Origin: Gammaproteobacteria bacterium DTU037 | GTDB taxonomy: Bacteria > Pseudomonadota > Gammaproteobacteria > Pseudomonadales > Pseudomonadaceae | DNA length: 64,000 nt | Reading direction: 5' to 3' | Assembly: GCA_001513025.1 (NCBI GenBank) | Contig: LFRZ01000082.1 | Span: forward strand, 38,145 to 102,144 | Shown: in pieces, positions 4,630 through 29,845 of the stretch | Layout: each line of letters starts with the position of its first letter | Numbering within the stretch: position 1 is the stretch's first letter | Program-made: the position numbers and the translations under genes | Notes under the pieces: generated by a model | Told to the model about the DNA's origin: nothing | Database searches by the model: none | The model's input: the letters and a program-made list of their open reading frames with translations, nothing else

Positions 4630-6999
<2,370 letters not shown>

Positions 7000-7119: not shown

Positions 7120-7386
7120 ATGAATGAGTCAGTTCAGGTTGAACACAATCTGCAAAAACAGTGCTTTTCAGTGCTGATTGATGGTTATCAAGGGTTGTTG
7201 GAGTACCGCACAGTGGATGAGCAGACGCTCGATTTTCACCACACCTTTGTCCCCGATGAACTGCGTGGTAAAGGTATTGCTGCACTATTGGCTAAAGCAG
7301 CCTTTGCTTATGCTAAAGACCATCAGTTGAAGGTGATTCCAAGCTGCTCGTATATTGCAACCTATATGCAACGCCACCCTCAATAA
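7120..7386 (+). CDS. Small GNAT-fold N-acetyltransferase, YjdJ/NATD1 type
   Basis: This 88-residue protein is the minimal GNAT fold. The pattern FVPDELRGKGIAALLAKAAFAYAKD contains the acetyl-CoA pyrophosphate-binding R-G-K-G-I-A loop, followed by the family's VIPSCSYIATYMQRHP end. ATG 7120 has GGAGGT (7110-7115) at ideal spacing. The substrate is unknown for most of the family. It stands alone between ligA and a convergent aro gene and has its own terminator. Confidence 0.85.
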   Translation: MNESVQVEHNLQKQCFSVLIDGYQGLLEYRTVDEQTLDFHHTFVPDELRGKGIAALLAKAAFAYAKDHQLKVIPSCSYIATYMQRHPQ

Positions 7387-26237: not shown

Positions 26238-26786
26238 TTAGTGTTCGTTGAGACTAAAGGCCGTTAGAGTGAAAGTGGGTACGCCTATATCTTGCATCAG
26301 TTGCGAGCCTTGCAGCTCAGGTAGGTCAATAATTGCCGCAACTTCATAGACGCTTGCGCCCATTCTGCGGATTAACCGTGCTGCTGCGACAAAGGTGCCG
26401 CCACTGGCAATGATGTCGTCAATCAGCAGTACTTTATCGCCGGCATGCAGGCTATCGGCATGCACCTCTAAAGTGGATTGTTCGTACTCAGTGTCGTAAG
26501 GCTCGCTCAAGACATCGGCAGGTAGCTTGCCTTGCTTACGAAATAAAACCAAAGGCTTGTTGAGTTCATAGGCGATGGTTGAACCCAATAGAAAACCACG
26601 TGACTCAATCGCACCAATATGGGTGAAATCGCTTTCAACATAACGCTGTACTAAGCCGTCAATGACCATGCGCATGGCTTTTGGTGATTGAAAAAGTGGA
26701 GTAATATCGCGAAAAATGGTGCCTTTTCTGGGGAAGTCTGGGATAGGACGGATTAAAGATTTAATTGCAAATTCATCGAAAATCAT
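26238..26786 (-). CDS. apt: Adenine phosphoribosyltransferase
   Basis: Apt salvages adenine to AMP using PRPP. The 182-residue protein shows the PRPP-binding motif [13 protein letters not shown] and the family N-terminus with [17 protein letters not shown] place the start at ATG 26786 (MIFDEF) because GGAGG sits 8 bases upstream; the earlier ATG 26801 has no ribosome site and would place GGAGG inside the gene. It follows anr by 23 bases and is probably cotranscribed with it. Confidence 0.96.
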
Positions 26787-26809
26787 AGGTTGAGCCTCCA
26801 TTAAGCAGG

Positions 26810-27544
26810 TCAGTTATCTAAGTTACCACCGGCTAGTGCGCAGATTTCAATCAGGTTAATCAGATTGATTTCTTTTCCTTCTGCTTCCAGCAATTCATTT
26901 TGCTGGAAGCGAGTAAACACCCTTGACACTGTTTCTACAGCTAGACCTAAGTAGTTACCAATTTCGTTACGTGACATGGCTAAACGAAATTGATTAGGGG
27001 AGTATCCGCGCGCACGAAAGCGCGCAGACAAGTTTACTAAAAATGTTGCAATACGTTCATCAGCGGTTTTTTTCGATAACAACATCATCATTTGCTGATC
27101 ATCACGGATTTCGCGACTCATGATACGCATCATCTGACGGCGTAATTGCGGCAGGATGGCGCTGAGTTCATCGAGCCTGTCGAAGGGGATTTCACAAATG
27201 GAGGTGGTTTCTAAGGCCATTGCCGACACAGGATACAGCTCGGTATCCATGCCAGATAAACCAACAAACTCACTGGGTAAATGAAAACCAGTGATTTGCT
27301 CTGCACCAGAGTCGGTGACACTAAAGGTCTTCAGGCTGCCTGAGCGTACGGCATAGACGGAAGCAAAGGTGTCACCTTGACGAAAAAGGAACTCGCCTTT
27401 TTTTAGTGGACGATTGCGTTTTACAATGCTATCAAGCGCATCAAGGTCTTTTAACTCCATGGATAGAGGCAAGCAAAGTGTGGCTAAGCTGCAGTCTTTG
27501 CAGTGAGCCTGATGAGGGTTACGCAGGCTGGTTATTTCGGCCAT
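26810..27544 (-). CDS. anr: Anr, FNR-type oxygen-sensing transcription regulator
   Basis: Anr binds a 4Fe-4S cluster and as a dimer activates anaerobic and microaerobic genes at TTGAT-N4-ATCAA. The 244-residue protein has the N-terminal Cys cluster ([11 protein letters not shown]) plus a further Cys in the [11 protein letters not shown] segment, a cyclic-nucleotide-binding fold, a dimer helix and the helix-turn-helix with [11 protein letters not shown]; the E, S and R contact the box. Local candidate targets are the hemN-like gene, ccoN2 and cydA. Confidence 0.96.
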
Positions 27545-27669: not shown

Positions 27670-29058
27670 CTATATAGCGTGTGTTATAGCGTACTCGGCA
27701 GCCTTATCGTGTGCACAATACTGATCAAATAGCTGGCAAACGGCTAAGGTAAATAAACGGCCTGAGGGCGTCATTTGCAACGAATGTTCAGTAAGGGTCA
27801 GCAGCCCGTCATGTTGCATGTGTTCTAACAGAGGCCATTGCTCACGTAAGTACTCTTTTAGGTTGATCTTATGGCGTTGCTCAATCCTGGCAAAATCAAC
27901 TCTAAACTGACAGGTTAAAGCTTGAATAATGCTGCGTCTAATATGATCGTCACTCTTGCAGAATAGTCCTTGTGCCGCGGGCAGCTGTTGATTGTTGCAG
28001 GCCATTTTGTAAGCGTTGACATCATGGGTGTTTTGATAATACAGATGTCCTAAATGACTGATGGCCGATAGACCAAAACCTATAATGTCGCAATTGGGGA
28101 AGGCACCATGGTCTTGCAGGTTATACTGTAAAACATCCTGTTCTTGGACAAAGGCAAACTCATCATCGGCTAAAGCAAAGTGTCCCATGCCAATATAGTG
28201 GTAGCCGGCATCGCTGAGTTGTTGTTGGGCGTTATGCAACATCTGCTCTATATCTGCCGAGCACGGTAAGTCCTGCGCATTAATACGTTTTTGAATAGGA
28301 TGCTTATTGGGCTGATGCTGAAAGCCTTGTACGATAATTCGATCAGCGCCTAGATTTAATATGTCTGCGAGTGTTTGTGCAAAGGCTTGCGGGGTTTGCT
28401 TGGGTAAACCATACATCAGACTGATATTAACAGTGCGAAATTGTAAGGTGCGCGCCGCCTCTACCAGTGTTTGTGTTTGTTCAATACTTTGTAATCGATT
28501 AATGGCGCGCTGGACTGTTGGATCAAGCCCCACCGCTTCAATATTAACGCGGTTAAAACCAATATCACGTAACATGCCCATGGTTGACCAGTCGGTTTCA
28601 CGCGGGTCAATATCAATACTGTATTGGCTAAAGTTGTCGCTGACTATATTGAAGTTATCTTTGAGGCAGTCCATCAATTGCCGCAGTTCGGCAGGGTTTA
28701 GAAAGGTTGGTGTGCCACCACCAAAATGCAGCTGTTTAATTTGCTGATGAGTATTGATCTGTTGCGCAACTAAGCGAATTTCTTGCTCTAAACTCTGCAA
28801 GTAAGCGCTGCTACGACTGCGATCCTTGGTTACTATATTTTTTGCGGTACAGTAGTAACATGCATTAGCACAAAAAGGAATATTAACGCTAAGCGCTAAA
28901 GATCGTTGTGCTTTGTCACTGTCGCGCAGGGCGCTAAAGCGTTCAAATGCACTGATTGGCTGCTGAAAATGATCAGATGAAGGGTATGAGCTGTCTTGTT
29001 TATCAAGGCGATGGTAGGTGTTAAATAATTGTGAGCTCCACCCTGGGCTGTTGGTCAT
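27670..29058 (-). CDS. HemN-like radical SAM protein with altered active site
   Basis: Length (462 residues) and overall sequence match oxygen-independent coproporphyrinogen III oxidase HemN, and the place beside anr is that of hemN in P. aeruginosa. The radical-SAM CX3CX2C is intact (Cys63, Cys67, Cys70), as are GGGTPT and INRLQ. Compared with E. coli HemN as I remember it, many functional residues differ: the fourth Cys is Ala72, the SAM-binding Tyr is Ser57 and His is Asn59, GVQD reads EAVG, DLIYG reads SLMYG, FNYAH reads QGFQH and MDHFA reads MGHFA. The frame is intact and a perfect Anr promoter precedes it. It may be a repurposed paralogue or a degenerate copy; I would not call it HemN. 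Confidence 0.8.
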   Translation of the reverse strand: MTNSPGWSSQLFNTYHRLDKQDSSYPSSDHFQQPISAFERFSALRDSDKAQRSLALSVNIPFCANACYYCTAKNIVTKDRSRSSAYLQSLEQEIRLVAQQINTHQQIKQLHFGGGTPTFLNPAELRQLMDCLKDNFNIVSDNFSQYSIDIDPRETDWSTMGMLRDIGFNRVNIEAVGLDPTVQRAINRLQSIEQTQTLVEAARTLQFRTVNISLMYGLPKQTPQAFAQTLADILNLGADRIIVQGFQHQPNKHPIQKRINAQDLPCSADIEQMLHNAQQQLSDAGYHYIGMGHFALADDEFAFVQEQDVLQYNLQDHGAFPNCDIIGFGLSAISHLGHLYYQNTHDVNAYKMACNNQQLPAAQGLFCKSDDHIRRSIIQALTCQFRVDFARIEQRHKINLKEYLREQWPLLEHMQHDGLLTLTEHSLQMTPSGRLFTLAVCQLFDQYCAHDKAAEYAITHAI

Positions 29059-29094
29059 GTCACCTAAACTCCTTGAACGCTAGCATTGTGAGCG

Positions 29095-29136
29095 AGTATA
29101 GGGGGCCTTTAGGTGAAGACTCTTGATCTGTATCAA
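29095..29136 (-). promoter_or_regulatory. Anr-dependent class II promoter of the hemN-like gene
   Basis: TTGAT-CTGT-ATCAA (29123-29136) is a perfect palindromic Anr/FNR box. On the minus strand TATACT (29100-29095) starts 22 bases beyond its edge, exactly where the -10 lies when the box is centred at -41.5. Predicted start is near 29088, giving a leader of about 30 bases before ATG 29058. Confidence 0.85.
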
Positions 29137-29161: not shown

Positions 29162-29845
29162 TTAATGACCCATTAACCAATGTTGATGGGGGCCCGGTAG
29201 GGTCCATAGGCCATAAAGAATCACCAGTGCGCCTGCGGCATAGCGAACATTTTGTTTGCGTAAAAATGCAGTCACGCGCTCTGCAGCTAAACCTGAAGCC
29301 AGTAACACCGGCCAGGTGCCTAGGCCAAAAGTGAACATAAGCAGTGCGCTGGTGGCTGCATCACCTTGGCTGGCAGTCCAAAAAAGCGTGCTATAGACCA
29401 AACCACAAGGTAACCAGCCCCAGAGTGCGCCAAGCAATAGTGCATGTGGAGTACTTTTAACTGGCAGTAAGCGTCCAGCCACGGGCTGAATATATTTCCA
29501 GAGGTGGCGACCTAGACTTTCAATGCGGGTTAAACCATGCCACCAGCCCGCTAGATATAAGCCGAGGCTGATTAAGAGTAGCGCCGCTATAACCCGTAGC
29601 GCGGCGGCGGCTGGCGTTTGCTCAACGGCCCACCCCAACAGCCCGAATAAGAAGCCTGCCACGGCATAGCTACTGACACGGCCTAAGTTGTAGGCGATGA
29701 TCATCCGCAAGCGATGCTGTTGCTGTTGCGCTGGAATACTTAAGGTCAGGGCGCCCATTAGTCCGCCACACATACCGAGGCAGTGGCCGGCGCCGAGTAA
29801 ACCCAAAATAAAAGCCGAGGCTAGCAGTGGAAATAAATCAGCCAT
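29162..29845 (-). CDS. SafE/TauE-like (DsbD_2) membrane protein of the cco cluster
   Basis: This 227-residue protein has about six membrane helices and the conserved GLLGAGHCLGMCGGLMGAL segment near the N-terminus, and GWLPCGLVYSTL in the middle; both carry cysteines suited to metal or thiol chemistry. Homologues lie next to ccoS in many proteobacteria and are suspected of a role in copper supply to cbb3 oxidase. It follows ccoS with a 1-base gap. Function is inferred from location. Confidence 0.8.
   Translation of the reverse strand: MADLFPLLASAFILGLLGAGHCLGMCGGLMGALTLSIPAQQQQHRLRMIIAYNLGRVSSYAVAGFLFGLLGWAVEQTPAAAALRVIAALLLISLGLYLAGWWHGLTRIESLGRHLWKYIQPVAGRLLPVKSTPHALLLGALWGWLPCGLVYSTLFWTASQGDAATSALLMFTFGLGTWPVLLASGLAAERVTAFLRKQNVRYAAGALVILYGLWTLPGPHQHWLMGH

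Follow-up and report, generated by a model that had tools for sequence, protein, structure and literature searches.

The gene beside anr in the genus Denitrificimonas encodes a HemN-like protein with an altered active site (hereafter hemN-D). This gene represents the ancestral anr-side hemN of the family Pseudomonadaceae and not a derived extra copy. The protein encoded in the window, i.e., the 64,000-nt stretch of a 2.83 Mb Denitrificimonas genome that we analysed, is very probably not a coproporphyrinogen dehydrogenase. The explanation that we favour, with moderate confidence, is that the anr-side gene ceded catalysis once the genome had a second HemN of the canonical kind (type A), and that it has been kept as an Anr-induced, non-catalytic protein with the HemN fold.

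The window gene (27670-29058, minus strand) has an intact frame of 462 codons. E. coli HemN (1olt) could be aligned over the entire protein (E 5.7e-89), and an AlphaFold model built with 12 sequences (mean pLDDT 78) matched 1olt with a Z of 45.3 and an rmsd of 1.9 over 431 residues. On TIGR00538, the HemN equivalog, the protein scored 396.5 bits, above the curated cut-off of 324.95, and this was the only threshold exceeded when it was compared to HemN, HemW, and HemZ. Identities as HemW (TIGR00539; 98.5 bits, cut-off 205.4), HemZ (TIGR03994; 117 bits, cut-off 321), ChuW/HutW (TIGR04107; 145 bits, cut-off 400), and the PsgB pseudo-SAM family (TIGR04419; 28.3 bits, cut-off 300) were ruled out by the curated cut-offs. 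Taken at face value, the TIGR00538 score suggests a working HemN whose substitutions are tolerated, as do the anr-side position and Anr control, both reported to be typical of Pseudomonas hemN (PMC6588701). However, the score is no proof of HemN activity, since orthologues that have lost cluster cysteines exceed the same cut-off; four sister orthologues of hemN-D scored 356-414 bits. Because all tested hemN-D orthologues lie above the HemN cut-off, automatic annotation will name them coproporphyrinogen oxidases.

The active-site residues make a working HemN very improbable. The three radical-SAM cluster ligands are kept in the window protein as Cys63 (28870-28872), Cys67 (28858-28860), and Cys70 (28849-28851), giving the CX3CX2C motif of the superfamily across 28849-28872. 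The fourth conserved cysteine of HemN (C71; E. coli numbering here and below) is replaced by Ala72 (28843-28845), and the CX3CX2CXC motif of the family is therefore lacking. Ser57 and Asn59 (28882-28890) stand in place of Y56 and H58, Asp149 (28612-28614) and Val176 (28531-28533) in place of E145 and Q172, Ser213 (28420-28422) in place of D209, Gln247 (28318-28320) in place of A243, and Leu314 (28117-28119) in place of F310, all on the minus strand. Compared to 85 canonical HemN proteins, these changes correspond to C71A, Y56S, H58N, E145D, Q172V, D209S, A243Q, and F310L, and both C71 and Y56 belong to the residues that are identical in all 85. The two-SAM site is altered at Y56, D209, and F310 (Ser, Ser, and Leu); Tyr56 of E. 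coli HemN stacks on the second SAM and has been reported to be crucial for catalysis (PMC13266988). The original prediction had read these residues, and the motifs NIPFC, EAVG, SLMYG, QGFQH, and MGHFA, correctly, and its statement that normally invariant positions had changed is borne out by the window protein, which differs at 35 of the 121 positions where the canonical proteins show an invariance of 98% or more. Its further claim that most HemN active-site residues were lost slightly overstates the case for the window protein alone, in which 8 of 18 cofactor or catalytic sites are changed and 10 are kept; when the genus is taken as a whole, 15 of these sites have been lost in one species or more. 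The exact membership of this 18-site list, part of which we take to follow the annotation of E. coli HemN, is a lead rather than a test. Losses were modestly enriched at cofactor sites (P = 0.01 with an extended list, P = 0.087 with a narrower one).

A canonical HemN in the same genome also weighs against hemN-D as a working enzyme. A second TIGR00538 protein (G000:C15:29003-30373; 589.7 bits) is 36-37% identical to the window protein, carries 16 of 16 key residues, and has the full CX3CX2CXC motif (CYYCACNK). Consequently, the window gene is not the sole oxygen-independent enzyme for the coproporphyrinogen step, and the possibility that it serves as the only coproporphyrinogen oxidase for anaerobic growth, which the original prediction had held against itself, does not apply. 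HemW (C149; 406.8 bits) and HemF (C107) are encoded in the genome as well.

The altered form was present in all ten Denitrificimonas species from which the anr-side gene was recovered, and changes common to ten species, some with single-contig assemblies, rule out chance, assembly, or sequencing error. In our tree, the ten proteins formed one clade (SH-aLRT 100) nested within the anr-side HemN of other Pseudomonadaceae, which places the window protein inside HemN by descent, while the canonical copy fell in the separate type A clade that is present in many of these genera. Considering this nesting together with the conserved gene order, the window gene is the altered original anr-side hemN and no late extra copy. 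The earlier reading as a paralogue is upheld, and a canonical copy exists in the same genome; the refinement is that hemN-D is not the derived copy. The literature that we searched held no description of a Denitrificimonas HemN. All three cluster cysteines are kept in six of the ten species. In the other four (G003, G005, G006, and G008), which represent three distinct lineages, the motif reads S-X3-C-X2-G/S (C62S, C69G/S), so that two of the three [4Fe-4S] ligands are lost and the CX3CX2C of the superfamily is absent. The protein tree weakly grouped these loss lineages (80), whereas neither the codon tree nor a species tree from four genes did so; support in both was poor. Promoter, frame, neighbours, and constraint are all preserved in the cysteine-lost orthologues, making a shared role in radical chemistry unlikely; on these sequences, the genus-wide role likely needs no [4Fe-4S] cluster.

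The locus itself is conserved. In the window, the next gene downstream is anr, encoding the Fnr-type oxygen regulator (26810-27544), followed by apt, encoding adenine phosphoribosyltransferase (26238-26801), and a TauE/SafE-like membrane protein gene lies upstream (29162-29845), all on the minus strand. This order (safE, hemN-D, anr, apt) was retained across Denitrificimonas wherever the contig was long enough. Upstream of hemN-D is an Anr box, TTGATACAGATCAA (29123-29136), centred ~71 nt before the ATG, then a -10 element, TATACT (29095-29100), 22 nt after the box, and a ribosome-binding site, AAGGAG (29069-29074), each on the minus strand. The box is perfect in eight of ten species and has one mismatch in the other two, and TATACT follows it at a nearly fixed distance in all ten, a spacing typical of class II promoters under Fnr or Anr. 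In Pseudomonas, the reported core Anr regulon includes hemN with an Anr box before it (PMC6588701). Upstream of the type A hemN, no Anr box was found within one mismatch. The claim that hemN-D sits next to anr with an intact promoter is therefore upheld. A second perfect palindrome, TTGATNNNNATCAA, occurs at 7178-7191 of the window, between an NAD-dependent DNA ligase-like gene (ending at 6999) and a DAHP synthase-like gene.

Selection on the gene bears on whether hemN-D could be functionless and in slow decay. Since saturated dS prevented most pairwise estimates, codon-based maximum likelihood was used; the unsaturated hemN-D pairs gave dN/dS values of 0.055 and 0.105. Omega was 0.136 for the ten hemN-D genes, 0.116 for the four cysteine-lost genes, and 0.137 for the cysteine-keeping orthologues; the values for type A (0.049) and anr (0.037) were lower. 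Fixing omega at 1 worsened the fit by 751 and 250 log-likelihood units. The elevation over type A, together with the many positions invariant in canonical HemN that vary in hemN-D, is what slow decay would predict. However, dN/dS is far below 1, no copy recovered from the ten species has an interrupted frame (that of L007 runs off its contig end), and the Anr box and -10 element are conserved at nearly fixed spacing, so that decay is scarcely credible and was rejected. In short, hemN-D evolves faster than its canonical partner yet is strongly maintained. The original prediction had preferred a new role to decay, and the codon models (0.12-0.14 among relatives), the conserved Anr promoter, and the lack of frameshifts among the recovered sister copies agree with it on this point.

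In the window species, hemN-D might still be a radical-SAM enzyme that acts on a new substrate with one SAM and the cluster that it has kept, with the cysteine-less sisters being later pseudoenzymes. The window protein keeps C62, C66, and C69, the GGGTPT motif, G112-T114, and R184, making SAM-I binding and cluster chemistry possible there, a counterpoint to the pseudoenzyme reading; the changed Y56, D209, and F310 are SAM-II residues, and loss of cluster cysteines is confined to four of the ten species. However, the cofactor-site residues E145 and Q172 are changed as well, and the orthologues with lost cysteines match the rest in promoter, gene order, and strength of selection (omega 0.116 vs. 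0.137), which argues for one cluster-independent role and leaves a new-substrate enzyme an unlikely reading. As a genus-wide role, the "another radical-SAM substrate" of the original prediction is contradicted by the four orthologues that lack Cys62 and Cys69 and are still constrained. In the cell, hemN-D is probably a pseudoenzyme.

Under the reading that we favour, a non-catalytic protein kept under Anr, the presence of type A would have freed the anr-side protein from coproporphyrinogen III dehydrogenation. Its persistence under Anr control points to another job, one that would be independent of the two-SAM radical chemistry of HemN. The TIM barrel, N-terminal arm, and HemN_C domain, all of which the protein retains, may at low oxygen serve to bind or carry haem or porphyrin(ogen), to regulate these compounds, or to regulate the enzymes that act on them. 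Our first guess, a tentative one by analogy, is a role in handling porphyrin or haem, because the HemN relatives HemW and CgdH2 of Campylobacter jejuni bind haem without making it. Direct sequence support for haem binding is lacking, since the haem motif of HemW, HNxxYW, is absent from all ten hemN-D proteins; it is present in the genome's own HemW. The main alternative to a porphyrin carrier is a regulatory role, in which hemN-D would partner type A HemN, HemF, a further haem enzyme, or Anr itself. Its constant adjacency to anr and the retention of the fold while catalytic residues were lost are consistent with such a partner. On the other hand, the crystallised form of E. coli HemN is a monomer, and we hold this alternative to be improbable.

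Among known systems, HemN/CgdH (TIGR00538; 1olt) shares with the window protein its whole-length homology, fold, CX3CX2C, GGGTPT, HemN_C domain, anr-side locus, and Anr promoter; it differs at C71, Y56, H58, E145, Q172, D209, and F310, and the window protein has a canonical copy elsewhere in its genome and sisters without cluster cysteines. The haem chaperone HemW, which has the HemN fold without coproporphyrinogen dehydrogenase activity, offers a functional analogy, although its score and haem motif set it apart from the window protein. CgdH2 is a HemN-like protein that binds haem and has no enzyme activity; it reportedly groups with MenK-type proteins and keeps its Fe-S motif, whereas the window protein branches inside HemN (PMC10320005). 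PsgB, a HemN-related non-iron pseudo-SAM, is a precedent for a HemN relative without an iron-sulfur cluster, but the window protein scores far below its cut-off and retains its cysteines. Multiple HemN copies with divided roles have been described in Pseudomonas donghuensis, and Bradyrhizobium HemN1 is cited there as nonfunctional; in the available part of that source, loss of the active site is not part of the description of these paralogues (PMC11200716).

A similar pattern was observed across the Pseudomonadaceae. In a survey of 198 genomes, with close reading of the anr-type copies of about 100, the anr-side copy had lost at least one of 16 key residues in 37 of 50 genomes with type A and in 0 of 50 genomes without a second canonical HemN, the lowest-scoring intact copies included; the genomes in these counts are not independent, and some cases in genus g5 that were counted on F310 or R22 alone are weak. 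Two genomes (G090 and G105) were left out because their single-copy hemN had disturbed frames or N-terminal ends; in G105, this sole hemN (G105:C1:6448484-6449847; L186) appears frame-disrupted, either by sequencing error or by real loss. By parsimony, C71 was lost at least six times, often to Arg, although in Stutzerimonas and g5 the C71R and F310 changes by themselves are no proof of inactivity. In Stutzerimonas, omega was higher in the clade with losses (0.133) than among intact copies (0.056); type A had 0.032. Some Pseudomonadaceae genera showed a single HemN match (G017, G033, G046, and G021; L157, L158, and L161). Of these, G017, G033, and G021 carry a type A copy, which suggests complete loss of their anr-side copy.

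Other HemN-like proteins with reduced motifs were also encountered. In genus g5, the anr-adjacent gene (L140:1029-2204, minus strand; L141:1960-3123; L142:2357-3526) encodes a short protein of ~350-390 aa that lacks the C-terminal part and has its fourth cysteine displaced by a single residue (CxRC); a full-length HemN occurs elsewhere in two of the three genomes (L140 and L142), and none was found in G185 (L141). Some Stutzerimonas have a third HemN-like protein (L137:2426-3805, minus strand; L136:2450-3814) of ~455 aa that scores 200-220 bits on TIGR00538 and has its cysteine motif wholly deleted, the L137 copy lying near a cytochrome c-551-like gene. A Pseudomonas family (L138:1014-2357, L040:3563-5014, L139, and L143) likewise lacks the cluster cysteines, and its members in L138 and L040 lie directly upstream of a canonical type A hemN; omega was 0.145 for the Cys-less Pseudomonas paralogues. 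The Cys-less proteins of both genera (L136, L137, L138b, L040b, L139, and L143) joined the anr-side clade on long branches, making their placement unsure.

These findings mean that the standard HemN model labels proteins without cluster cysteines as coproporphyrinogen oxidases. A wider idea, which we put forward as a speculative and rather doubtful one, is that in Pseudomonadaceae the anr-side HemN had two functions from the start, combining catalysis with a non-catalytic low-oxygen role in haem or porphyrin carriage or in regulation. In each lineage with a second HemN, the catalytic part would then erode while the hidden function is kept, yielding convergent, Anr-driven pseudoenzymes that are annotated as active. 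If true, well-known denitrifier genera would hold a natural, repeated experiment that splits HemN catalysis from another function, and would provide a cluster-free protein with the HemN fold for testing haem and porphyrin trafficking at low oxygen.
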